Source: Bacteroidia bacterium (GTDB taxonomy: Bacteria > Bacteroidota > Bacteroidia > J057). From it: 64,000 bases of DNA. The position numbers were made by a program, and so were the translations under genes. Positions within the stretch are counted from its first letter, which is position 1. Each line of letters opens with the position of its first letter. The notes under the pieces were generated by a model. That model had not been told where the DNA came from, did not search any database, and worked only from the letters and a program-made list of their open reading frames with translations. Positions 19,424-48,127 of this stretch are shown piece by piece. The stretch spans positions 1-64,000 of the forward strand of contig JAUIKF010000046.1 in assembly GCA_030430575.1 (NCBI GenBank), read 5' to 3'.

Positions 19424-21316
19424 TCAAGCAGCCGCTTCAGCCACCTCCAACGCTTCTTCTACTTTTTCCTCTACCACATCCTTCTCTACCCGCAAGTTAT
19501 CGATGATAAACAGCTGACGGTCAGGGGTATTTTTACCCATGTAGTAGGTCAGGAGCTTCTTAATCTCGGCTTCGCTACTCAACATGACTGGCTTCAGGCG
19601 GATATCATCTCCAATGAAATTTTCAAATTCATCAGGAGAAATCTCCCCAAGTCCCTTAAATCGCGTGATTTCAGGTTTGGCGCCAAGCTTAGCCATGGCC
19701 GCTTGTTTCTCTTCTTCGTCATAGCAATAGAAAGTCGTCTTTTTATTGCGCACGCGGAACAGCGGGGTTTCAAGGATATAAAGGTGCCCGTTGCGGACGA
19801 GATCGGGGAAAAATTGCAGGAAGAAGGTGAGCAATAGCAAGCGAATGTGCATACCATCCACGTCTGCATCTGTAGAGATCACCACATTATTGTAGCGAAG
19901 CGTGTCGAGGCCGTCCTCAATATTGAGGGCGTGCTGGAGGAGATTAAACTCCTCATTTTCATATACCACTTTCTTGGTCAGACCAAAGCAGTTAAGCGGC
20001 TTTCCACGCAAGCTGAAAACAGCCTGGGTTTCCACATCACGCGCTTTGGTGATAGAGCCACTAGCAGAGTCGCCCTCGGTGATGAAAAGCGTCGTATCCA
20101 GACGTTTATCGCTATTTTTCTTGGTTTCCTTATCGCTATAATGAATGCGGCAGTCTCGCAATTTTTTATTGTGTAGGTTGGCGGCTTTGGCGCGCTTGGT
20201 GGCTAGCTTCTTGATGCCTGCAATCTCTTTGCGTTCACGCTCGGACTGCTGGATACGCTTGAGAAGTGCCTGAGCCGTTTCTGGATTTCGGTGTAAAAAA
20301 TCGTCTAAGGCTTTTTTAACAAAATCCACAATAAACGAACGCATCGTCGCTCCGCCAGGCGCGACATGGGTAGAACCCAGTTTGGTCTTGGTCTGCGATT
20401 CAAAGACAGGCTCTTGCACACGCACACTGATCGAGCCGATAATAGAGGCTCGGATATCGGGCGTATCGAAATTTTTGCCATAAAAATCGCGCACCGTCTT
20501 GACGATAGCTTCGCGAAAAGCCAGTAAGTGCGTACCGCCTTGTGTCGTATGCTGTCCATTGACAAAGGTATAGTATTCCTCTCCGTACGAATTGCCGTGG
20601 GTGAGGGCAATCTCGATGTCATCTCCTTGCAGATGAACGATGGGATAACGGATAGAATCTTCATCCGTTTTAGCCCTGAGCAGGTCTAGCAGGCCATTTT
20701 TAGAATAAAATCGCTGCCCATTAAACTCCAAACTCAGGCCTGCATTCAGGTAGGCGTAGTTCCAGAGTTGGTTGTGCAGATATTCAGGGATAAAGCGGAA
20801 ATTCTTGAAGACCGACTCGTCGGGTCTGAAGATTATGGTGGTGCCATTGGGTTCCTTGGTCTTGGCGAGTCGGTGATCTTTGAGCAGCTCTCCTCGCTCA
20901 AATTCGGCTACTTTCATCTTACCATCACGGACGGATTCCACCCGAAAGTAATTTGAAAGGGCGTTGACGGCTTTGGTACCTACCCCATTCAGTCCTACAG
21001 ACTTTTTGAAGGCTTCAGAGTCGTATTTACCGCCGGTATTGATCTTGGAAACGCAGTCGATGACCTTACCCAAGGGGATGCCCCGCCCATAGTCGCGGAC
21101 CCGGACTTCGCGCTGATCGATCTTCACCTCGATCTTTTTTCCATTGCCCATCACATACTCGTCAATGGAGTTATCGATGACTTCTTTCACCAGGACATAA
21201 ATCCCGTCATCGACGGAGGATCCGTCTCCGAGTTTACCGATATACATACCTGGGCGGAGGCGAATATGCTCCCGCCAGTCAAGGGACTTAATGCTACTGT
21301 CGTCGTATTTGGCCAT
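19424..21316 (-). CDS. parE: DNA topoisomerase IV subunit B
   Basis: This 630-residue protein is the ATPase subunit of topoisomerase IV, the Bacteroidota ParE form (starts with [20 protein letters not shown] rather than GyrB-type text). The GHKL ATPase motifs are [14 protein letters not shown] and [14 protein letters not shown]. The TOPRIM domain has EGDSASGS and [10 protein letters not shown]. It resolves catenated chromosomes together with ParC, which is not adjacent. A short repeat-like coiled tail ends the protein (EVAEAAA). The start MAKYDD is typical. Confidence 0.9.
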
Positions 21317-35509: not shown

Positions 35510-38500
35510 ATGATCCCCCTCAAACTCACCCTTCAAGGGCTTTATTCCTACCAAGATCAGCCCCAGACGATAGACTTCGCCAAGCTCACCGAGGCGCAGA
35601 TATTTGGGATATTTGGGGCGACGGGCAGTGGGAAGTCCGCCCTCCTGGAGGCGATGACTTATGCCCTCTACGGCAAGACCGTCCGCCTCAATCAGGCCGA
35701 TGGCCTGAAATACAACCTCATGAACCTCAAGTCGAATCAGTTCTTGATCGACTTTGAGTTTGCGTCGGAACTAACCGAACGCAAGCACTATCGCATCACC
35801 GTGAAGGCGCGCCGCAACTCCAAGCGGTTTGGAGACATCACGACGCCTGAACGGATGGCGTATGTCTGGGAAAAGGAGGAATGGAAGCCCTTTGAGGTAA
35901 AGGAAATTGAGGACATCATCGGGCTTTCGTATGAGAACTTCGTGCGCACCACCATCATCCCCCAGGGGCAGTTTCAGGAGTTTATCAGCTTGGGACCGGC
36001 GGACCGCACACGGATGATGAAGGAGCTGTTTAAGCTCAATAAGTACGATCTCGGGTTCAAGGCCGCGAGCTTGGATCAAAAAAATAAAATGGCCATCGTG
36101 GCACAGGAGACCTTGCTGACGCAGCTGGCCGCCGCCACACCTGCCGCACTCACGGAGGTCAACGACCGCCTTCACTCAACTGCCGAGGCGCAGCAGCAGG
36201 CTACCGAAGCGCTCAAAAAGCAGGAAGCCGAAGCGCATCGCATGGAAGCGCTGAAAGCGCTTTTTGAGCGATTTGCGGCCCAGAAGCAGGAGCTGGAAGC
36301 CCTGAAAGCACAGAAGCCTGGCTTTGAGAAAAGGAGCGAGACCTTGCGGCAATATGAGCTTTGTCTGCTGCAATTTCAGCCGATTATGCAGCGGATCGAT
36401 GAGTTGAAGGACGAATTGGAGAAAGTACAAAAAAGCCTGCAAGTGAAGCAGGAGACCTTGGAGGATTTGGGGCAAAGGCTACCTGTCGCGGAGCAGAGTT
36501 TTACCAAAGTCCAACAGCAATACCTCCAACGTGCACAGCTTCTGACAGAAGCCGAAGAGTACGAACGCATCCTCGAATTGCGGGAGATGGAGGCCGCCAA
36601 TATTGCCCTGCAAAAGCGGATCGGCGATGGCAAGGAGGCCATCAAATTGAAGCGCGCGGAAGTGGATGACTTTCGCCTCCGCCGTGAGCAGCTCACGGAG
36701 CAGTTGGCGAAGCAGCGAAATGCGCTTCCCAAACTCAGCGTGATCCTGGAGCTTCGCGGCTGGATGGAGCAGCTTGCGACATTGGAGCGAGGGGCAGAAG
36801 AGGTACAGGCAAAAGTAGCAGAAGCTGACCGCCAAATGGCTGATTGTCAGCAGCGAAAGGCCGTTATCCTCGCCCAAACATCCCTTTTGCCCGCCCAATA
36901 CACGCTTGCTTTTGACCAGCTTTTGCCCATTATCCTACAGACACAAACCCAACAAGCATCCGAACTCGCCACTGCCAACGAAGCGATTGCCTCCCTTTCT
37001 GCCAAAACTCAGTTGAAGCAATTTGCAGAAACGCTGAAAGAAGGCGACCCTTGTCCCCTGTGTGGGGCGACACACCATCCCAATGTGAAGGAGTTTGAGC
37101 AGCTCGATTATCAATTGACTGCCCAGCAAACAGCAGCGAAGCAGTTTCAGGAAGGGGTTTCTAAGGCCCAACAAGCACATGTGCGACTGACAGCTTTGGC
37201 GGAAGAAGTCAGGCGCATTGAGGAGGTACAGCTAGATTTGGGCAAAAAAATGGCGGCGCATCAAGAAGCCATCGATAAACACGAAGCCACCTTCAAATGG
37301 CCTGAATATAAGGGCAAAGACCGTGTAGCCCTCAAGGCAGAACTCGCTCAGGTCGAGCAGGCCAATACGGCCATTGAGCAGCTAGAAAGCAATCGAGAGG
37401 TATTGGACAAAAGCCTGCAAACCGAGACGGAAAATTTGGAACGCTACCAGAAGGCTGTCGAGCTACTCTCAGGCCAATTTCAGCAAGCAGACGCCACCTT
37501 TCAGGCTTCTCTGAAAGCGTTGAAGCAAGTGGACTATACAGCCCTCAAAGGCGAGTCGACCCACAAGCTCGAAGGGCTGGCCGAAGCACGGAGGCAAGCC
37601 CATGAAGAATTGGAAACCCTTTTTGCCCAGACGGAACAGCATCTCAAGCAACTCCGCGACAAACTGGCCGGTCTCAAGGGCGAAGCAGAAATCCAGCTCA
37701 ATCAGGAAAAAACGACCACTCAAAAACTTGTCAAGCAGCAAAAACTGCTACAAGCCCAATTGGAAGCTTCTGACTTCCAGCAGATGGCTGAGGTGAATGA
37801 ATTGCTGGGACTGGCGCTCACTCCTTCGACTGAGCGGGACGCCATCAATCGCTTCCACCAGCAGCTTCACAGCGCAGAAGCGGCCTTTGGCGAGCTGGAA
37901 GCCCAGACCAAGGGTAAGGCGTATGACACAGCAGCGTTTGACGCGTTGGCGGCAAAGATTGCAGAAGCGCAAGCGCATATCACCCAGCTCACGCGTGAGC
38001 TGGGCGGCTTGCAGCAGGAGCAACAGCGCCTGAAGGCGCAGTTGGAGGAAAAAGAGAAGCTGAACGCAGAATTGGAACGCTTGCAGGTGCGAGCGGAAAA
38101 TATCAAGACATTAAAGAACCTGTTTCGCAGCAGTGGATTTGTCAACTATGTCTCCACCATATACCTTCAAAACCTCTGCGTGGCTGCCAATGACCGCTTT
38201 CGCAAACTCACGCGAGGTGCCCTGCATCTAGAGACGAAAGAAGATAACACCTTCATTGTCAGGGACTTTCTCAACGATGGGCAACCACGCTCCATCAAAA
38301 CGCTGTCGGGCGGCCAGACTTTCCAGGCGGCTTTGTCGCTGGCCCTTGCGCTGGCCGATCAGGTCCAGCAACAGGCCCAAGCCAAGCAAAACTTCTTCTT
38401 CATCGACGAAGGATTTGGCACCCAGGATCGCGAGGCGCTACAAGCTATTTTTGAAACCCTCAAATCCCTACGCCGAGAAAACCGTATAGTGGGGATCATC

Positions 38501-38599
38501 TCCCACGTGGAGGAGCTTCAGCAGGAAATAGATTCCTATTTGCTGATCTCAAGCGACCCCGAACGAGGAAGCCTCGTGAAGGCGAGTTGGGAGAACTAA
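35510..38599 (+). CDS. sbcC: Nuclease SbcCD subunit C
   Basis: This 1029-residue SMC-like ATPase has a Walker A GATGSGKS (36-43), long coiled coils with a CPLC zinc hook (515-518), the ABC signature LSGGQTFQAALSLALALA (about 932) and Walker B FFFIDEGFGTQD (about 963). It works with the SbcD nuclease to cut DNA hairpins and protein-blocked ends, notably replicating palindromes. The usual sbcD gene is not next to it. The hook spacing and length are usual for the family. Confidence 0.9.
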   Translation: MIPLKLTLQGLYSYQDQPQTIDFAKLTEAQIFGIFGATGSGKSALLEAMTYALYGKTVRLNQADGLKYNLMNLKSNQFLIDFEFASELTERKHYRITVKARRNSKRFGDITTPERMAYVWEKEEWKPFEVKEIEDIIGLSYENFVRTTIIPQGQFQEFISLGPADRTRMMKELFKLNKYDLGFKAASLDQKNKMAIVAQETLLTQLAAATPAALTEVNDRLHSTAEAQQQATEALKKQEAEAHRMEALKALFERFAAQKQELEALKAQKPGFEKRSETLRQYELCLLQFQPIMQRIDELKDELEKVQKSLQVKQETLEDLGQRLPVAEQSFTKVQQQYLQRAQLLTEAEEYERILELREMEAANIALQKRIGDGKEAIKLKRAEVDDFRLRREQLTEQLAKQRNALPKLSVILELRGWMEQLATLERGAEEVQAKVAEADRQMADCQQRKAVILAQTSLLPAQYTLAFDQLLPIILQTQTQQASELATANEAIASLSAKTQLKQFAETLKEGDPCPLCGATHHPNVKEFEQLDYQLTAQQTAAKQFQEGVSKAQQAHVRLTALAEEVRRIEEVQLDLGKKMAAHQEAIDKHEATFKWPEYKGKDRVALKAELAQVEQANTAIEQLESNREVLDKSLQTETENLERYQKAVELLSGQFQQADATFQASLKALKQVDYTALKGESTHKLEGLAEARRQAHEELETLFAQTEQHLKQLRDKLAGLKGEAEIQLNQEKTTTQKLVKQQKLLQAQLEASDFQQMAEVNELLGLALTPSTERDAINRFHQQLHSAEAAFGELEAQTKGKAYDTAAFDALAAKIAEAQAHITQLTRELGGLQQEQQRLKAQLEEKEKLNAELERLQVRAENIKTLKNLFRSSGFVNYVSTIYLQNLCVAANDRFRKLTRGALHLETKEDNTFIVRDFLNDGQPRSIKTLSGGQTFQAALSLALALADQVQQQAQAKQNFFFIDEGFGTQDREALQAIFETLKSLRRENRIVGIISHVEELQQEIDSYLLISSDPERGSLVKASWEN

Positions 38600-38762: not shown

Positions 38763-39845
38763 ATGCCTAAATTATTAAAAGCCTACGATTCCTACGGCGA
38801 CCTCGAACCCCCTTACTTTTTTACGTTTTGCTACGATGCCTTTCCCTCAAGCGTGAAATTGAATATCCGATTGCGGTCCCAACGTGAAAAGATTGAGGCG
38901 GTATTGGCAGCCGTTGATATGGATGTATATGCGCTTAACACGGTGTATAAAAATTGGCGGACGGACGGGGTAAAGAATCCCGATCCTTCTAAGGATTTTC
39001 CCTTTCAGCATTTGCTGAAAAGTGACTCTCACAAACTCCTTGTGTGGATCGACTTATCAGATAATAGCCTGAGCATTGACTGCTATTATGACTTAGCTGA
39101 CACGGAAGTAGAAGCCTGGGTGCTAGCGACATGTCATCGCCTACGTACAGAGTTTGCCGAAGAGCGTACCCATACGTTCAAGGTGCTCGCCCGTTCTGAC
39201 CGTCAATTCTACACAGAAGATGTCAATACAGGTGATTTTTCGGTTGTAGCGGTTGACGAGCTGTATAATGATGATTTCCAGGAAATTGATTCCATTATTT
39301 GTGAGTCGATGGGCAAAAGTGAAGCGGGGTTGATTCTCTTGCATGGAGAACCAGGAACGGGGAAGACATCCTATATCAAAAATTTGATCTGCAAATTTCA
39401 AGAGAAGGTCTTCATTTTTATCCAAAATGAATTTGTGCAGGACTTGCTGAAGCCCGAATTCATTTCCTTCTTATTGAAACACCGCGACGCTGTATTGATC
39501 ATTGAAGACGCTGAGAAAGTCATCATCTCTCGTGAGCATTCCTCGGAAGGCTCAGTGGTCTCTACCATCCTCCAATTGACTGATGGCCTTTTCAGCGACT
39601 ACCTCAATATCAAGATTATCTGCACCTTCAATACCGGTATTGACAAGGTCGATAAGGCCCTGGTCCGCAAAGGCCGATTGATCGCCAAGTATGAGTTTAA
39701 GCCTTTGACAGCAGAGAAAACAGCTAAGCTGCTCCAGTCCCTCGGGTACGAGGCGAAGGAGAAAGTCATGACGCTAGCGGATATATTCAAATTGAAGCAC
39801 AAGGACTTCAATGGGGAGGAGAAGAAGGCGAAGATTGGGTTTTGA
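38763..39845 (+). CDS. Bcs1-like AAA ATPase
   Basis: This 360-residue protein has an N-terminal ~185-residue region of unknown fold and a C-terminal AAA domain. Walker A is GEPGTGKT (about 194-201) and Walker B is VLIIEDAEKV, with ED at the catalytic position. STILQLTDGLFSDYLN and IICTFNTG match the sensor region, and VRKGRL is arginine-finger-like. This arrangement resembles Bcs1-type and phage or plasmid AAA ATPases more than proteases. It has no membrane anchor. Role unknown. Confidence 0.7.
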   Translation: MPKLLKAYDSYGDLEPPYFFTFCYDAFPSSVKLNIRLRSQREKIEAVLAAVDMDVYALNTVYKNWRTDGVKNPDPSKDFPFQHLLKSDSHKLLVWIDLSDNSLSIDCYYDLADTEVEAWVLATCHRLRTEFAEERTHTFKVLARSDRQFYTEDVNTGDFSVVAVDELYNDDFQEIDSIICESMGKSEAGLILLHGEPGTGKTSYIKNLICKFQEKVFIFIQNEFVQDLLKPEFISFLLKHRDAVLIIEDAEKVIISREHSSEGSVVSTILQLTDGLFSDYLNIKIICTFNTGIDKVDKALVRKGRLIAKYEFKPLTAEKTAKLLQSLGYEAKEKVMTLADIFKLKHKDFNGEEKKAKIGF

Positions 39846-39920
39846 GGGGGAGTGGAAAGTAAAAATAAAAAATAACTAACAAGGAAGGCTAAAGGAAATA
39901 TATCAAAAGGCTTAGACAGT

Positions 39921-40514
39921 ATGGCCCATTACAATTTTGAGTTTTTCAACAAAGTAGAAAAGGCCATTCATTGGGGCAAGCCTGTTGAGGAACAATTGGA
40001 GGCGCTGTCCCAATTCGATGATATAACTGTTGCAGATATCCAGGAAATGGCAGCTACATGCCATAAAAGTGCCCAAGCAGGAATTCTGTTGGAGTACTTA
40101 GGCTATGAAAGACTCAAACCTTATTCACCCCTGTTTTTAGAATTCCTCCAAGACATGAACTGGTGTGGCGGAGCAGGAGCCGCAACGATGCTCACGAAGG
40201 CTGGAAAGGAAATCATTCCTGAGATACAAAGGGTTTTCAAGGAGGTAGCAAATGATGCCATCTGGCACTATTGGATTTTGCTGGGAATCGTTCAGCGTTT
40301 TGACAAGGACTTGATTTTAATCTTAAAAAGCGACTTGTTAGCCCTTATTCAAAGGGCGGACAAGGAAGGGGCCGCGATTCAGGCCCTCGTTACCCTAAAG
40401 GAAAGCGCTCTACTGACAGAGAAAGAAGTATTGACTCATTATCATTATTTACTCAAAAAATACGAAGGAGATCCCTACTGGATTGAAGATTTGAATGAAG
40501 CGTTATCCCCATGA
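39921..40514 (+). CDS. DUF5071-like protein
   Basis: This 197-residue soluble helical protein has a C-terminal DUF5071-like core (LGYERLKPYSPLFLEFLQDM, NWCGGAGAATMLTKAG, AIWHYWILLGIVQ). It is probably a HEAT-like helical repeat. The last codons overlap the ATG of the 46-residue membrane protein (ATGA). Confidence 0.65.
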   Translation: MAHYNFEFFNKVEKAIHWGKPVEEQLEALSQFDDITVADIQEMAATCHKSAQAGILLEYLGYERLKPYSPLFLEFLQDMNWCGGAGAATMLTKAGKEIIPEIQRVFKEVANDAIWHYWILLGIVQRFDKDLILILKSDLLALIQRADKEGAAIQALVTLKESALLTEKEVLTHYHYLLKKYEGDPYWIEDLNEALSP

Positions 40515-40651
40515 AAAATAGCATCCTGAGAACCTTTATCATCTTTGGCATTTTCCTGGGATATTTTGGATTAAGGGATCTCCCTAATTTTGCCTGGCTT
40601 TCCAATGGACTTGCCCTGTTTTACATTTATTCCCTTATCTTGTATCAGTGA
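40511..40651 (+). CDS. 46-residue membrane protein
   Basis: This very short gene encodes two hydrophobic segments (ILRTFIIFGIFLGYFGLRD, then FAWLSNGLALFYIYSLI) with a charged N terminus, so a double-spanning or single-spanning peptide is likely. Its ATG overlaps the preceding stop as ATGA, and its TGA overlaps the GTG of the next gene as GTGA. This tight coupling on both sides strongly suggests that it is translated. It may be an accessory of the sensor kinase that follows. Confidence 0.65.
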   Translation: MKNSILRTFIIFGIFLGYFGLRDLPNFAWLSNGLALFYIYSLILYQ

Positions 40652-43600
40652 AAAAGAATACCCCATGGCTTATCAGCTTTATGCTGCTTCTACCCTTATG
40701 GCCAACCCTGGCCTTTTCTCAAGAAGCAACCCCATCCCCTGACACTGATTCTCTCCTCCAAGTATGGCATGATGAGGGTATCCCTGATTCCAGCCGTTTC
40801 CAAGCAAGGCTTACGATGATCTCCCAGCTCAGCGACAAACAGGCCGACACAGCGGTAGTATGGTCTCGCCGCTTGATCGAACAGGTTGAAGTATTGGGGG
40901 CAACGGAATGGACCAAAAAGGCAGAACAGGCCTTGTCCAAGAACCTAATCCTTTTAGGGTTTAATACCTTTGTAGCGGGAAAATACACGGATCGAGCGAA
41001 GAATAAGCTTGCGGCAGCGTACATTTTAGAAGGGTTTGAAATAGATAAAAAGTACCAAGCTTATACTGAGATGTCTCGTGCGATGCTGGTCTTGGGATAT
41101 ATCCATAAATATCAGGAGGAGATGGAATTGGCTTTGGAGAAGTTTGAAACTGCAGTGAAGTATGGGGAACTGGCCAAAAACCCGCTGGCGCTATGCAATG
41201 CGATTCGACAAGTAGGGGCCATCCAGATGATGACAGGAGATAACCAAGGCGCCCTCGCTAACTATGAGAAGGCAGTTGTCCTAGCTAGGGAGACGGGCGT
41301 CCGCAAGGAGGTGGCAAATAGCTTGACTCAACTTGGTCTTTTGACCAACCGGATGGGTCAATTTGAGGAATCGCTAGCATATCAGCAAGAGGCGTTAGGC
41401 ATATACCTAGAAGGAGATACCGCACAAGAAACCGTTGCTAGGGAAGTAAGCATCTCCATGATCAATTTTGGGGTGGTGTTAGATAATCTGGGACAAGCAG
41501 AAGCATCGCTTGCCATTTACCAAAGGGCGCTGAACCTCCTAGCACCTTTTGACGAAAAGCGCTATATCGCCAAGATACAGCAAAATATGGGGTTGATCTA
41601 TGCCAATCAGGGAAAGGTACAGCAGGCGATCGAATCAACTGAGAAAGCACTTGCCAATAAACGGGCCATCGATGACCAGCGCGGTATAGTCAGTTCTTTT
41701 GCAAAACTGGGCAACTTTAAGACAAGGGAAGCCAATTTCCCCGAAGCAATGGCCTACTACAACCAAGCCCTTGCACTGGCCAAGGAAATAGGCGTGCAAA
41801 CCCAGATCATTTCTATTCAGCACAATATGGCTGAGTTGTATGTGAGTCAAGGGGAAAATGAGCAAGCGGCTAACTTCTTTTTGCAGAACATTGAAACATC
41901 GGAGCAGTTGGAAATGCCCAGGTCTGTTGCTACAAACTTATTGGCGCTAGGGAAAGTGAAAACCCTCATGGGACAAGACTCAATGGCCTTGATTCACTTG
42001 CAGCGTGGCCTGGAAATTTCCAGGTCTATAAAGCACAAAGTTGGAGAAGGAGAGGCCTTAGAAGCGTTAGGGGATTTTCACTATCAGCAAAGGGAACTTG
42101 TACGGGCAGAGCAGTTGTACCGAGAAGCGTTGAAGTGTTATTCAGAAATAGGCAATCAATTGGGGACTACCACTGTCCGGAACCAATTGCATCAGTTGCT
42201 GAATGAGACCCAACGGCCTGCAGAGGTCCTGGAATACGGGGCCCAAGTCCTGGCTATGAGCCAGAATCTCCGTAATGTCGAAGAAATAGAAAAAGCGGCT
42301 TTTAACCTCTATGAGGCATATCGCGCAGCAGGCAAAAACACCTTGGCATTGGAGATGTATGAGCTGCACCAGCAGATGCGTGACAGCCTGGATACGGAGG
42401 AAAACCAACGGGCCATCCTCCGCCAACGCTACGCTTATGCCTACCAAGAGCAAGCGCTCAAAGACAGCCTTGAATTTGTCCAGCAGCGGGCAGAGCAAGA
42501 CCTGGAACACCAGCAGGAAATATCCCAACGCAATTACCTGATAGGCGGTGTTTTAGGATTGTTGCTGGTCAGCCTCTTGGGATTTCTCTTCTTCCGCAAT
42601 CAGCAGCGTATCCGCCTGCGTGAGCGAGAGATGGCCTTGCAACAAGAACGCTATCAGCAAGCCCGCCTTCAAGAACTCGACGAGCTGAAAACGCGCTTTT
42701 TTACCAATATCTCCCATGAATTTCGCACGCCGCTGACCGTCATCCTTGGGATGGCCGAGCAATTGGCAGCTCCTTTTGACCAGGAGCAGAGCCTGATCCG
42801 TCGCAATGGCCGTCGCCTCCTCCGTCTCATCAACCAGCTCCTCGACCTGGCGCGTATGGAGTCCCAGAAAATCACCCTGAACTTCGTTCAAGGCGATATG
42901 GTGAGTTATCTCCGCTACCAGGCAGAATCCTTTCAGTCCATGGCAGAAGAGCGAGAGATATCGCTTCAGGTAGAAACAGAAGTTCCTGAGATCGTCATGG
43001 ACTATGATGCGGAGAAGGTACAAGATTCTGGGGAAGGGATTCCCGCGAATGAACTGCCCCATATCTTTGATCGGTTTTATCAAGGCGGGCAAATCGCGCG
43101 TGACAGCTCTACGGGTATTGGGTTGGCATTGGTAAAGGGCTTGGTAGGGCGAATGGGCGGAGAGATTTCGGTCGAAAGTGAAGTGGGTCGAGGAACTACC
43201 TTTAGCTTTACCCTACCGATACGGCGAGAAGCTGACACACCGCTAGCCTATGCATCTACCGTCTCCGAAGTTCCTTTCGTAGAGACAAACGCCCCACAAA
43301 CGGCTGTTGGAGGGGATCAAGCTGACGATCCTGATCGTCAGCAGGTCCTGATCATCGAGGACAATCCTGACGTCATCACTTACCTGAGCGCCGTTCTAGG
43401 CCCTTCCTACAACTTGCTGACCGCTATGGACGGCACCACAGGCGCCAAAATGGCTTATGAACATATCCCAGACCTTGTGGTCTGTGATGTGATGATGCCT
43501 GGCATGGACGGCTATGAAGTCACAGAAGCCTTAAAAACGGATGCCCGCACCAGCCATATCCCTATCATCCTGCTGACGGCCAAGGCGAGCCAGGACGACA

Positions 43601-44100
43601 AAGTCGCTGGTCTGGTTCATGGAGCAGATGCCTACCTCACCAAGCCATTTGACCGAACAGAGTTGCTTGTGCGAATAGAAAAGCTCCTAGAGCTGCGGCA
43701 GAAACTGCAAGCGCGGTATCGTGAAATGGTGAGTACGGGAGAAGCGACCGTAGTTACGCCTAAAGCGCCCACGCTCGACGAAATATTTCTCCAAAATATC
43801 CGCACGACCATCACCGAAAATATCACCAAGACGGACCTCTCCGTCCATGACCTGTGCGAAGCCGTCAACCTCGCCCGTACCCAGGTGTATCGCAAACTCA
43901 AAGCATTGACAGGAGAGAGCCCCACTCTCTTCATTCGTTCCATCCGCCTGGCGCATGCGCGTCAGCTGTTGGAGACGACAGAATTGACGGTATCAGAGAT
44001 TGCCTACGATGTAGGGTTTTCTGATCCGGGCTACTTCTCTCGGGTATTTGCCGAGGCCTTTGGGGTAAGACCGACGGGCTTTCGGGAAGGGAAGAAGTAG
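40648..44100 (+). CDS. Giant hybrid sensor kinase with TPRs and AraC domain
   Basis: This 1150-residue one-component-like hybrid has a signal peptide, about 14 periplasmic TPRs (to about 590), a TM helix near 630-652, HisKA with phosphorylatable His690 (NISHEFRTPL), an ATPase domain, a receiver domain with Asp947 (CDVMMPGMDGYE) and an AraC HTH at the C terminus. The ATPase domain is abnormal: after MDYDAEKVQ (792) it jumps to DSGEGIP, so the stretch with the N-box (NxxxN) and about 45 residues is missing in frame. G1 (DSGEGIP), F (FDRFYQ) and G2 (STGIGLAL) boxes remain. The kinase may not bind Mg-ATP. Start codon is GTG. Confidence 0.85.
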   Translation: MKKNTPWLISFMLLLPLWPTLAFSQEATPSPDTDSLLQVWHDEGIPDSSRFQARLTMISQLSDKQADTAVVWSRRLIEQVEVLGATEWTKKAEQALSKNLILLGFNTFVAGKYTDRAKNKLAAAYILEGFEIDKKYQAYTEMSRAMLVLGYIHKYQEEMELALEKFETAVKYGELAKNPLALCNAIRQVGAIQMMTGDNQGALANYEKAVVLARETGVRKEVANSLTQLGLLTNRMGQFEESLAYQQEALGIYLEGDTAQETVAREVSISMINFGVVLDNLGQAEASLAIYQRALNLLAPFDEKRYIAKIQQNMGLIYANQGKVQQAIESTEKALANKRAIDDQRGIVSSFAKLGNFKTREANFPEAMAYYNQALALAKEIGVQTQIISIQHNMAELYVSQGENEQAANFFLQNIETSEQLEMPRSVATNLLALGKVKTLMGQDSMALIHLQRGLEISRSIKHKVGEGEALEALGDFHYQQRELVRAEQLYREALKCYSEIGNQLGTTTVRNQLHQLLNETQRPAEVLEYGAQVLAMSQNLRNVEEIEKAAFNLYEAYRAAGKNTLALEMYELHQQMRDSLDTEENQRAILRQRYAYAYQEQALKDSLEFVQQRAEQDLEHQQEISQRNYLIGGVLGLLLVSLLGFLFFRNQQRIRLREREMALQQERYQQARLQELDELKTRFFTNISHEFRTPLTVILGMAEQLAAPFDQEQSLIRRNGRRLLRLINQLLDLARMESQKITLNFVQGDMVSYLRYQAESFQSMAEEREISLQVETEVPEIVMDYDAEKVQDSGEGIPANELPHIFDRFYQGGQIARDSSTGIGLALVKGLVGRMGGEISVESEVGRGTTFSFTLPIRREADTPLAYASTVSEVPFVETNAPQTAVGGDQADDPDRQQVLIIEDNPDVITYLSAVLGPSYNLLTAMDGTTGAKMAYEHIPDLVVCDVMMPGMDGYEVTEALKTDARTSHIPIILLTAKASQDDKVAGLVHGADAYLTKPFDRTELLVRIEKLLELRQKLQARYREMVSTGEATVVTPKAPTLDEIFLQNIRTTITENITKTDLSVHDLCEAVNLARTQVYRKLKALTGESPTLFIRSIRLAHARQLLETTELTVSEIAYDVGFSDPGYFSRVFAEAFGVRPTGFREGKK

Positions 44101-44104
44101 GAGA

Positions 44105-44215
44105 TTGCAGAATATCGAACAAGGCTTGTCCTGAGCCCCGCCGAAGGGATTGGAGAATTAAGATGGGAAAGAGTCTTTATCCTTTAAAAATCCTTGTTCC
44201 GCAATCCTTGTTCGT
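44105..44215. repeat. TATCGAACAAGG inverted repeat with nested module
   Basis: AATATCGAACAAGG (44111 onward) pairs with CAATCCTTGTTC near 44192-44205. The module CTTGTCCTGAGCCCCGCCGA (44125-44144) interrupts the left arm, and the same module is in the elements at 3476 and 5273. The rest of 44216-44403 has no gene that I can see. Confidence 0.55.
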
Positions 44216-44403
44216 AAATCAATTCATATTATAGAAACCTAGTTGGTATTTTAAAAAAATAACAATCTTAATTGACTGAAAATCAGTATCTTACAACCCA
44301 TACAACCACAGTCCCAATCAATGCACCCACAGTCCCCCCTCCTCTGAAGCCCAACTGATAGCTTGCGGTCGAAATGAATTATTCACCTATAACCCAATCT
44401 ATC

Positions 44404-45177
44404 ATGTTTAACAAAAAAATCACTACCACCTCCTACACCTTCGCTACGCTCGCGCTCTGTATCTTTATGAGCTTTGTCCCACACCTGCATGCACAACAAT
44501 TGGAAATCCATTCTTCTTCAGACCAGGCGATCCAGGAAGTCCGTACTGGCATGGAACTCTTGGGGCATGAGACGAACAAGTTTCATACCCATATGGTAAA
44601 AGCCCATGAACTAGACCCTAATTTATTGATAGCCAATTTCTTCTTGGGGATGAATCCCGACGCGGAGAAAGAAGAAGCCATGGAGTATGTACAGCTTATC
44701 AAATCCTATGAAGGAGAGTTGAGTGCTGGCGAAAAGGTATTTGCAGAAATGGCGAGCCACTTTGGTGAAGAGGATTATGAGGTGGGTATCCAACTCAAGG
44801 AATTGGCTGACTTATACCCTGAGGACGGTGTCGTACAGCAGTTTGTCGGCATGGCCTTTAACTTATTCAAGCGCCCCAAGGAAGCGATTCCATACCTTAA
44901 GCGTGCGTATGAATTGGCGGAACTGCCTGGATCAGCAAATATTCTAGGATACACTTACCTACAAATCGGCGACACCGAACAAGCCCAAAAATACTTCGAG
45001 GCTTATATGGAAACTACCTCTGGTCACCACAATGCCTATGACTCTATGGGAGACTTTTACATGGCGACCAAGAACTACAAGGCTGCGGCGGAGAGCTTTG
45101 AGAAAGCTGCCGAATTGCACCCTGAAGGCACCCACCATACTGAAAAGGCCGAAAAAGCACGTGAGATGATGAAGTAG
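44404..45177 (+). CDS. Secreted TPR protein
   Basis: The 257-residue product starts with a signal peptide (LALCIFMSFVPHLHAQQ) and has TPRs in the C-terminal half (RPKEAIPYLKRAYELAELPG, GDTEQAQKYFEAYMETTSGH, NYKAAAESFEKAAELHPEGT). It is probably periplasmic. A second ATG 30 bp upstream (44374) would extend the N terminus by 10 residues; 44404 gives a better signal peptide. A strong terminator follows 64 bp after its stop. Confidence 0.7.
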   Translation: MFNKKITTTSYTFATLALCIFMSFVPHLHAQQLEIHSSSDQAIQEVRTGMELLGHETNKFHTHMVKAHELDPNLLIANFFLGMNPDAEKEEAMEYVQLIKSYEGELSAGEKVFAEMASHFGEEDYEVGIQLKELADLYPEDGVVQQFVGMAFNLFKRPKEAIPYLKRAYELAELPGSANILGYTYLQIGDTEQAQKYFEAYMETTSGHHNAYDSMGDFYMATKNYKAAAESFEKAAELHPEGTHHTEKAEKAREMMK

Positions 45178-45241
45178 AAAATTATCGAACGAGGAATGTA
45201 TAAAGAATTTTTAGGTTCTTAATTCATTTCTCGTTCTTTTG

Positions 45242-45270
45242 ACCCACAAGCGGCTGCTTGTGGGTTTTTT
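45242..45270 (+). terminator. Rho-independent terminator
   Basis: ACCCACAAGC, loop GGCT, GCTTGTGGGT and a run of six T form a textbook terminator after the TPR gene. Confidence 0.9.
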
Positions 45271-45374
45271 GTATGTTGAGTTTGAGCTTGAATTTGCACT
45301 TGAGTTTTATTTTCTCTTAATAGCCACTAAGGCTAACATTCCCTCCCTTGATGAGTTAGACGATAAAAAGTGAA

Positions 45375-46472
45375 ATGAAGAAATCCCTCCTCTTCCTGCC
45401 AGATATATCTGGATTTACAGAGTTTGTCCAAACGACAGAAGTGAGTCACAGTCAGCATGTGATTGCGGAAGTGCTGGAGGTCTTACTAGCAGCCAATACC
45501 TTGGACTTGCAGCTGGCGGAGATTGAAGGAGATGCCTTGTTCTATTTTAAAGAAGAGGAGATCCCTTCGCTGGAGCAACTGCTAGCGCAGGTGGAGACCA
45601 TGTTCACGGCGTTTTATAGCCACCTCAAATTGCTTGAGAAGAACCGAGTCTGTCCCTGCAACGCCTGCTCCTCTGCACCGAACCTACAGCTCAAGATCAT
45701 CGCCCACTGTGGAGAGTTGCAGTTTATCACCGTTCAGGATAAACGCAAACCTTTTGGGACGCAGGTGATCGAAGTGCATCGCCTGATGAAAAACTCTGTA
45801 GAAAGCGACAATTATGTGCTCTTGAGCAAAGAGCTGGCAGATCATATGGAATTGTCCACAGATTACAAAAGCAAGTTGTATGACTTTCAGGCTGGGGAAA
45901 ATGAATACGATGGCAAAAAGGTGCCTTATTTATTCTCCCTCATAGACAATGAAACGCTCAAGCTGAAGCCTTTTGCCCAAGCCCCAAAAATCAGCTTCGA
46001 CAAAGCGCCCAGCATTTACCTAAAAAAAGAATTCCCCGTTTCAGCCCCTCAATTGTTTGAATATATCTCCAACTATGCCTATCGTCATTATTGGACGGAC
46101 GGGGTGGATCGGTATGAATACGATGAAAATGAAGTCAGCAGAATAGGGACGGAGCATATCTGCGTGGTCAATGGCAAACACCTCAACTTCCTCACCGTCA
46201 TCAAGGAGGGAAAACCAGGCCAACTGGTCTATGGAGAGACGTCGTCTGACGCGCCGGTAGCAGATGCGTTTTATCAATTTTATTTCATCACCCCCCTGAC
46301 GGAACACTCCTGTATCTTTGAAACGGAAGTCTATCTGGTTGCAAAATCTCCCCTCAAACGACTGCTGATAGCACTGGTCATCCAACACATTTTTCGCAAA
46401 AACCTCAAAAGCGCTATCAATAGTTTGTTTGATTTTGTGGAAAAGGGAAAAAGGGGCCAAATTCAATTATAA
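45375..46472 (+). CDS. DUF2652/START-like protein
   Basis: This 365-residue cytoplasmic protein has an N-terminal domain resembling class III cyclases (LLFLPDISGFTEFVQTTE, and EIEGDALFYF), annotated DUF2652, up to about residue 190. A C-terminal SRPBCC/START-like domain (about 215-360) follows, with APQLFEYISNYAYRHYW. CPCNACSS (Cys95-Cys100 region) is a small Cys cluster. The catalytic status is unknown. A single-base-to-4-bp gap precedes the next gene. Confidence 0.75.
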   Translation: MKKSLLFLPDISGFTEFVQTTEVSHSQHVIAEVLEVLLAANTLDLQLAEIEGDALFYFKEEEIPSLEQLLAQVETMFTAFYSHLKLLEKNRVCPCNACSSAPNLQLKIIAHCGELQFITVQDKRKPFGTQVIEVHRLMKNSVESDNYVLLSKELADHMELSTDYKSKLYDFQAGENEYDGKKVPYLFSLIDNETLKLKPFAQAPKISFDKAPSIYLKKEFPVSAPQLFEYISNYAYRHYWTDGVDRYEYDENEVSRIGTEHICVVNGKHLNFLTVIKEGKPGQLVYGETSSDAPVADAFYQFYFITPLTEHSCIFETEVYLVAKSPLKRLLIALVIQHIFRKNLKSAINSLFDFVEKGKRGQIQL

Positions 46473-46481
46473 ACTCCGCAA

Positions 46482-47204
46482 ATGAAGAAAGCCATTTTAG
46501 TTATATACCTGAGTCATCTGACCTTCTTGATATTTGGCCAAACGACCAAGCCATTTCCCTATTTATTGGAAATTACTCACGCGGATGACTCGACAGTGCA
46601 TCTATATGTTGACAAACATAAAACGGAAATATTCAACCAAAAACTCAGTGAATTAAATAAAAACCATCCATTATATACTTCAGAAGATTGTGAGTCAGGG
46701 ATGACTTTGCTGGCTATTACATCGATTGATAATTCGTCAAGGAAATATGCAATAGTCTATGGCTTCTGTCCAGAGCCTGAATTTCACCTATACAGTGCTA
46801 GTGATCTCTCAAAATTTTATGGTGCAGTTGGTGGGGTAAATATGTATATACCTGGGAACGGAAGTTTGTATGTGTCGGGGCACCTTAATTCAAATTTTGA
46901 TCGAAAGGTAAAATTGAAATTTGAAAACAATGAATTGAAAGAAGTCAAACAACCGCTCTATTATGTAGGCCTTAAAACCAAGACGCTAAAACCTATTACC
47001 CTATATCAAACCAAAGAATTTAAAAATGTGGTCGCGAACCTTCCTGAAAATTACCGTGTCGAAGTGCTACTTGCTGAAACGGGGTACCGCCACGAAGATT
47101 ATTATCTCATAAAAACGGATTTTGGTTTGGTTGGCTGGGCGAAGATAAAAGCTGGGCAGTATTCCGCTATTGATATAGAAGGAATCTATTTTAATGGAGA
47201 CTAA
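46482..47204 (+). CDS. Secreted protein of unknown function
   Basis: The 240-residue product has a signal peptide (LTFLIFGQ) and a mixed beta-rich body. The C-terminal ~60 residues (VLLAETGYRHEDYYLIKTDF, GLVGWAKIKAG) look like a bacterial SH3-like repeat. No enzymatic motif is visible. It follows DUF2652/START gene by 9 bp and may be co-transcribed. Confidence 0.5.
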   Translation: MKKAILVIYLSHLTFLIFGQTTKPFPYLLEITHADDSTVHLYVDKHKTEIFNQKLSELNKNHPLYTSEDCESGMTLLAITSIDNSSRKYAIVYGFCPEPEFHLYSASDLSKFYGAVGGVNMYIPGNGSLYVSGHLNSNFDRKVKLKFENNELKEVKQPLYYVGLKTKTLKPITLYQTKEFKNVVANLPENYRVEVLLAETGYRHEDYYLIKTDFGLVGWAKIKAGQYSAIDIEGIYFNGD

Positions 47205-47219
47205 CTTGCCATTGACCAC

Positions 47220-47654
47220 ATGAAAAAGACTGACCAACCCATCATCATCACAAAAACTTACAACGCCTCTCGTGAAACTGTATGGCGCGCCCTCACAGAA
47301 CTGGGCCAGATGACCCAATGGTATTTTGAGCAAATCCCTGCGTTCCGGGCGGAGGTGGGGTTTGAGACGCAATTTGCCGTCCAAGTGGAAGATCGGGTAT
47401 TTACCCATCTGTGGAGAATGACGGAGGTGATTCCATTTCAGAAATTCACCCATACATGGAGATACTTGGAATATCCAGGAGATGCCTTTGTGACGTTTGA
47501 ATTGGCGGAGGTGGAGGGCAAGACACAGTTGACGCTGACACTTGAGGTGATTGAGAATTTTGCGGAAGGGATTCCGGAATTCAGGCGGGAGAGTTGTGTA
47601 GGGGGCTGGGAGTACTTTTTGGGGGAAAGGTTGATGGGGTATTTGGGGGAATAA
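47220..47654 (+). CDS. SRPBCC/AHSA1-like protein
   Basis: This 144-residue protein starts with the AHSA1/START fold signature (IIITKTYNASRETVWRALTE) and has a WRYLEYPGDAFVTFELAEVE strand, then a C-terminal helix with GGWEYFLG. These hydrophobic-cavity proteins bind ligands or modulate partners; the specific role is unknown. Confidence 0.8.
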   Translation: MKKTDQPIIITKTYNASRETVWRALTELGQMTQWYFEQIPAFRAEVGFETQFAVQVEDRVFTHLWRMTEVIPFQKFTHTWRYLEYPGDAFVTFELAEVEGKTQLTLTLEVIENFAEGIPEFRRESCVGGWEYFLGERLMGYLGE

Positions 47655-47677
47655 TCGGGATTTAACTAAATAGAAAT

Positions 47678-48127
47678 ATGGAAACGATACTTGATGAATG
47701 TTATGAGGTTGAGGTTGAACGAGTTGATTATCGAAGTGTAGGGATACTTAGAATAGTTTTAATTGAATTAGTAAGGTCAGAAACACCGGAAGATGTTCCG
47801 GTCACCGAAAAAGTAACATTTGAAAATTCCTTCGCTATTAGGTCAACAGCGAAAAGCAGGCATTTTTTGGTAGAATTTAACAATGCCATTTTCCACCAAG
47901 TCCTTAATGAGTCATATGCAAGTCAAAATAAAGATGAAAGGAGAGATACAAAAGGTTTTATCCAAAAAATAACCAAGTCCAATTATCAAGAATATATTAA
48001 AACGAATTTTGGTTGGTATGAGCAGGTAATAGGCAAAGGAATACATTACAGAATAAGAGGGATATCGGAAATTATTGATGTAATTTCATGTGAGGACCCT
48101 GAAATTATGGAAATAGATAAGAATTGA
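47678..48127 (+). CDS. Unknown protein
   Basis: This 149-residue protein is not recognised. It is acidic, soluble and beta-rich, with a moderately conserved-looking HYRIRGISEIIDVIS strand at the C terminus. The GC content is lower than in its neighbours. Confidence 0.45.
   Translation: METILDECYEVEVERVDYRSVGILRIVLIELVRSETPEDVPVTEKVTFENSFAIRSTAKSRHFLVEFNNAIFHQVLNESYASQNKDERRDTKGFIQKITKSNYQEYIKTNFGWYEQVIGKGIHYRIRGISEIIDVISCEDPEIMEIDKN

Follow-up and report, generated by a model that had tools for sequence, protein, structure and literature searches.

The window, by which we mean the whole 64,000-nucleotide stretch of DNA analysed here, encodes a 1150-residue hybrid sensor/response regulator (the window protein; Table 1) that has lost 38 residues from its kinase ATP-binding domain, among them both N-box asparagines, while the reading frame is unbroken. 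We favour, as somewhat better than an even bet, a recent loss-of-function deletion in a regulator of the hybrid two-component system (HTCS) type. The output of this regulator is expected, from what the deletion removes and what it leaves, to be probably locked off.

The deletion and the gene that carries it

Pfam finds TPR repeats, HisKA, HATPase_c, a receiver and HTH_18 in that order along the window protein, the last four all above the cut-offs. Since these parts, ending in an AraC-type domain, lie in a single chain, the layout is that of an HTCS, and judged from its sequence the window protein is of this type. It shares with other Bacteroidota HTCSs the joining of sensor, membrane helix, HisKA, HATPase_c, receiver and AraC-type HTH in one chain, as well as the SHIP motif in the receiver; it differs from them in lacking the N-box part of HATPase_c and in its surroundings. 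HTCSs regulate a polysaccharide-utilisation locus, often adjoining it. Here, a Pfam scan of the eight adjacent proteins (38763–48127) found neither SusC/SusD nor a glycan enzyme, nor any sugar-utilisation gene, and three of the eight were without any match.

Table 1. Features of the regulator gene, in window coordinates.
Feature	Position	Strand	Basis
46-aa hydrophobic ORF; its 3' end runs into the GTG start codon of the regulator gene	40511..40651	+	ORF list
Hybrid sensor/response-regulator gene, GTG start, 1150 aa	40648..44100	+	Unbroken ORF and Pfam domains
Membrane helix, residues 628–649	42529..42594	+	By eye from hydrophobicity
HisKA, residues 681–739; phospho-acceptor His690 (42715–42717) intact	42688..42864	+	Pfam and sequence
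Deletion junction GTACAAGAT (V791 Q792 D793)	43018..43026	+	Sequence and sister-gene comparison
C-terminal remainder of HATPase_c: G1 DSGEGIP, F IFDRF, G2 STGIGLAL; N-box absent	43024..43224	+	Pfam, sequence, model
Receiver, residues 900–1010; Asp947 (43486–43488) and Lys999 intact; SHIP 969–972 (43552–43563)	43345..43677	+	Pfam and alignment
AraC-type DNA-binding domain HTH_18, residues 1069–1147	43852..44088	+	Pfam

The short ORF that overlaps the start of the kinase gene gave no match in the Pfam scan, and translational coupling between the two is possible from their arrangement. The large upstream gene (35510–38599) was found in 13 of 13 family genomes. By comparison, the downstream gene (45375–46469) had matches in 3 of the 13, neither G001 nor G012 among them, and none at E ≤ 0.001 in the sole other genome of the same genus compared. 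Matches to the sensor half of the window protein at E ≤ 1e-30 were likewise found in three family genomes (its own included), and not in G001 or G012; the other genome of the genus had none at this threshold and a weak 27% match (L019) at a looser level. Terminator-like sites numbered 10 in the scan, against 5.6 (sd 2.5) in shuffled sequences, and promoter-like sites 6 against 5.5. The gene has a G+C content of 0.51, that of the window being 0.46. Another HATPase_c protein is encoded in the window on the minus strand (19424–21316; match 20816–21208, E 4.9e-10).

The window protein runs directly from MDYDAEKVQ to DSGEGIP. A preliminary description of the sequence had reported this in-frame jump, together with retention of His690, Asp947 and the G1, F and G2 motifs; the ORF is indeed open throughout, and all five are present as described (G1 at Asp793, F-box at Phe807, G2 at Gly823). 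It had put the omission at about 45 residues (135 bp) and had suggested comparison with the closest full-length homologue. This is a protein encoded on contig 739 of G012, a genome of the same family (L053/L034; hereafter the sister), by an intact 970-aa frame from base 696, and it is 59% identical over residues 789–1147. Compared with the sister, the window protein lacks 38 residues (114 bp), so that the omission was real and its size overestimated. The same interval measures 36 to 70 residues across 127 relatives, with a median of 38. In an alignment of 128 proteins, both N-box asparagines are present in all 127 others and neither is present in the window protein, in agreement with the described loss of the NxxxN Mg-ATP site. 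The extent of that loss had been drawn too narrowly, as two strands of the sheet are gone as well (see below). The HATPase_c match in the window protein (residues 767–859) covers positions 23–110 of the 111 in the profile and, among the matches listed for its own genome, is the only one of 92 to start past profile position 10. The gap is more than alignment noise.

This set of 128, the window protein included, comprises phmmer relatives of the query at E ≤ 1e-20 that show HisKA and receiver parts, and is biased to that extent; duplicates, the window's own second copy and fragments were removed ahead of the count.

Structure models and the expected output state

The intact relative L061 (243 residues, 36-row alignment), modelled with AlphaFold2, served as a control, and the window protein was modelled by the same method. 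Placed in the alignment by the N-box residues N131 and N135 and the G1 aspartate D167, the missing stretch corresponds approximately to L061 residues 127–166, which in the control model contain most of helix 122–139 and strands 145–155 and 158–167. Mean pLDDT was 85.8 for the control and 74.6 for the window protein. In the window model, where the junction lies at residue 126, the 10-residue blocks of residues 121–160 had pLDDT values of 57, 66, 60 and 56; the first two compare with 97 and 89 in the matching control blocks, whereas the last two coincide with the ATP lid of the control, which is weak there too (71 and 60). PDB matches at E ≤ 0.001 numbered 350 for the control and 91 for the window model, with best E-values of 9.0e-20 and 5.2e-9 respectively, part of this drop being owed to the shorter chain of the window model. 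The latter still retrieves histidine kinases that match the greater part of its chain (e.g. 9jfj_C, TM 0.71).

With the N-box helix mostly gone and two strands of the sheet missing, the models indicate that the ATP-binding fold is broken, beyond the Mg-ATP site alone, with the reservation that AlphaFold is no test of stability. The N-box has a known role in the ATP-binding function of the kinase. Given this role and a sheet that would be two strands short, autokinase activity has very probably been lost, and the window protein can probably no longer start its own signal. The earlier suggestion that the sensor may be kinase-dead is thereby supported as probable, from the loss of the motif and the model of an intact relative; action as a phosphatase or through binding, which it also raised, would be hypothetical.

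What this would do to the output depends on the receiver. In several Bacteroides HTCSs the receiver is reported to keep the DNA-binding domain off without phosphorylation (Gao, Wu and Stock, PMC11253607), and the same source describes S/CHIP-DK as a conserved motif at the interface of the two domains. The window protein has the SHIP of this lock and a lysine, K1085, and the sister also has SHIP and K; the residue that we tried as the D partner, D1068, falls in a column with D in 27 of 128 rows. The work on the lock concerned Bacteroides HTCSs and not the window protein. With no kinase of its own and the SHIP of the lock kept, the window protein is expected to be off. Another donor could still phosphorylate its Asp947; in the sister the receiver aspartate is gone.

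Origin of the gap and condition of the remaining gene

In the sister gene, two 9-base stretches, ATCCAGGAT at the left end of the interval and ATCCGGGAT at the right, match at 8/9 bases and are set in phase at a distance of 38 codons; the window gene has one counterpart, GTACAAGAT. Elsewhere in these genes, at the same spacing and phase, matches of at least 8/9 occur at 0.03% of positions. At the two points equivalent to the junction they occur in 2 of 127 genes, namely the sister and L064, which has the 8/9 repeat yet no deletion. We consider replication slippage between such short in-phase repeats the probable origin of the deletion, the repeat being one observed in the sister gene and not in the window gene's own ancestor. 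The preliminary description had argued that the kept frame speaks against a sequencing collapse. This is a weak argument, as the likely slippage repeats of the sister share a codon phase, and slippage in phase preserves the frame even for a product of no use, so that selection is not needed to account for it.

The rest of the gene is in good condition. At sites conserved at 90% (in HisKA, the remaining HATPase, the receiver and HTH) the window protein changes 1 of 61, where the median of the set is 2, and at sites conserved at 95% it changes 0 of 38; on these counts we rejected a general decay of the gene. Its end branch, in a tree built from the top 50 by score of the 128 proteins (itself included), is 0.37 changes per column, as against 0.96 for the sister. 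The absence of changes at the 38 sites and the short end branch fit a recent lesion, but an otherwise clean protein can also mean one that is still useful. Between window and sister genes, the four domain stretches compared differ far more at third positions (0.54–0.66 per codon) than at second positions (0.18–0.25), although these values cover all of the divergence between the two genes, so they do not speak for the period after the deletion.

The sequence of events that we prefer is thus one in which slippage between two short repeats, coding for V/I-Q/R-D, presumably cut about 38 codons, so that the ATP-binding domain lost the greater part of its N-box helix as well as two strands. The shortened protein, otherwise preserved, would be unable to bind Mg-ATP properly or to phosphorylate its own His690, and the SHIP lock on the receiver would hold the DNA-binding domain off by default unless another donor phosphorylated Asp947.

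Relatives, alternative readings and significance

The window protein and the sister group at 100/100 support in the tree of 50, although the tree program flags the letter make-up of the sister as unusual. The HisKA, G1–G2 and HTH segments of the window protein are each nearest to the sister, whereas for the receiver segment L061 is slightly ahead (157 vs 154 bits). Since both sides of the junction are closest to the same relative, we rejected a chimera of paralogues.

A different reading of the deletion is that the regulator does without a phosphorelay of its own: the TPR sensor would move the dimer, and with it the DNA-binding domains, directly, so that the kinase chemistry was free to be lost in this small clade, through a different lesion in each species. 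We think this unlikely; a little more doubtful still is its fullest form, in which the clade has been freed from the phosphorelay by such mechanical coupling and the chemistry would have been lost twice (the ATP core in one protein, both acceptors in the other) and the rest kept under constraint. The sister is what brings this into consideration. It keeps the N-box, yet in an intact frame its HisKA acceptor is changed from His to Arg and its receiver Asp to Tyr. Judged by His, N-box and receiver Asp, the two proteins are the sole broken pair among the 128, leaving aside L128, which shows no His because its match starts past this residue, close to where its 3,000-base contig begins. Both are otherwise conserved: the sister changes 3 of the 38 near-invariant sites, these being the His, the Asp and one Met to Leu. 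The pairing of the two broken proteins as mutual nearest relatives suggests that the clade has come to depend less on phosphate (n = 2 proteins). Furthermore, the HTCS BT4236, with Gln at the His site, has been suggested to work without phosphorylation (PMC11253607).

Nevertheless, the clade has two members only, and their sensors are just ∼27% identical, with L019, from the same-genus genome, outscoring the sister on this segment (123 vs 112 bits). The lesions are independent, because each protein retains what the other lost, and both may be decay. The lock of BT4236 departs from the motif (CSIP-EK; PMC11253607), whereas window protein and sister keep SHIP. The sister comes from an assembly that is 87% complete and split into 1400 contigs, its own contig being 6.3 kb long, and its flagged letter make-up also counts against leaning on it. 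Moreover, damage beyond the pair is possible, as seven other proteins of the set have Asn in place of the first Asp of G1.

The proteins with this substitution (in DxGxG), of which six come from Bacteroides-named records, are L010, L067, L087, L093, L096, L102 and L129. They retain the other nine positions that we checked in kinase and receiver, and the change may affect ATP binding. For comparison, the His is reported missing in 0.9% of HisKA domains (722 of 76,471) and the Asp in 2.0% of receivers (3,111 of 152,269; PMC12632262).

Searches for further members of the clade in the family (13 genomes, threshold 1e-80) and the order (22 genomes) gave only G012 as close, the next in the order being G010 (333 vs 436 bits). 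At 1e-99 one of 395 class genomes passed, the window's own; these were an even sample of a larger group and evidently did not include G012, and with four candidates scored per genome in the rows listed this was a thin search. A scan of genome contigs kept 80 of 246 relatives, the best segment of the best relative reaching 45%; its seeds were six 8-residue peptides from the window protein, matched exactly, and members may have escaped it.

The window protein might also be phosphorylated in trans, the ATP-binding domain of an intact paralogue acting on His690 in a heterodimer and the phosphate then passing to Asp947. The intact His690, HisKA domain and receiver would allow this, and at least 10 other places in the genome match the bulk of the query, beginning near residue 117, at 41–48% identity. 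On the HisKA side, however, identity to the paralogues is only ∼42–56%, such heterodimers are hypothetical, and none of the eight adjacent proteins has a Pfam kinase domain; we regard the idea as improbable.

An error of assembly or sequencing seems to us just as improbable. The gene comes from a single draft assembly of 127 contigs, and a search of the genus (2 genomes, own included) gave no second genome of the species, so the deletion, known from one strain, could be private or wrong. Against an artefact, the HisKA and G1–G2 sides share a nearest relative, and words of 12, 15 and 21 bases taken across the junction occur only once in the window. The flanking repeat in the sister is just 9 bases, which is far below usual assembly word sizes. 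A near-identical intact second copy, which we also looked for, was absent from the genome among the matches listed, the best other place having 43% identity.

If the deletion that we take to be a recent loss of function is nothing but plain decay, this is an ordinary broken gene. From sequence and model together, the window protein very likely lacks one or more kinase functions. In this respect it can be compared with DivL of Caulobacter, which is not fused to a receiver and HTH. DivL is described as a pseudo-histidine kinase without kinase or phosphatase activity that is retained as a component of signalling; it has Tyr550 at the His site and a catalytic domain that is present but binds ATP poorly (PMC4211667), whereas the window protein keeps the His. 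BT4236 of Bacteroides thetaiotaomicron is an HTCS with a broken phosphorelay and a proposed phosphorylation-free action, with Gln at the His site and a non-consensus lock (PMC11253607); here the His and SHIP are kept and the N-box is lost. The notion of a pseudo-histidine kinase is itself established (PMC12632262, citing Collins and Childers 2021). A search with a few phrases over titles and the starts of abstracts of open-licence texts found no description of a natural N-box deletion in an HTCS, which is not proof of absence. What is new here is an HTCS without its N-box core that keeps the other motifs checked. The pseudo-histidine kinases met in this comparison (DivL and BT4236) had lost the acceptor residue; here it is the ATP-binding core instead. 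The window protein and its oppositely damaged sister therefore form a natural pair for asking whether such regulators work without phosphate.
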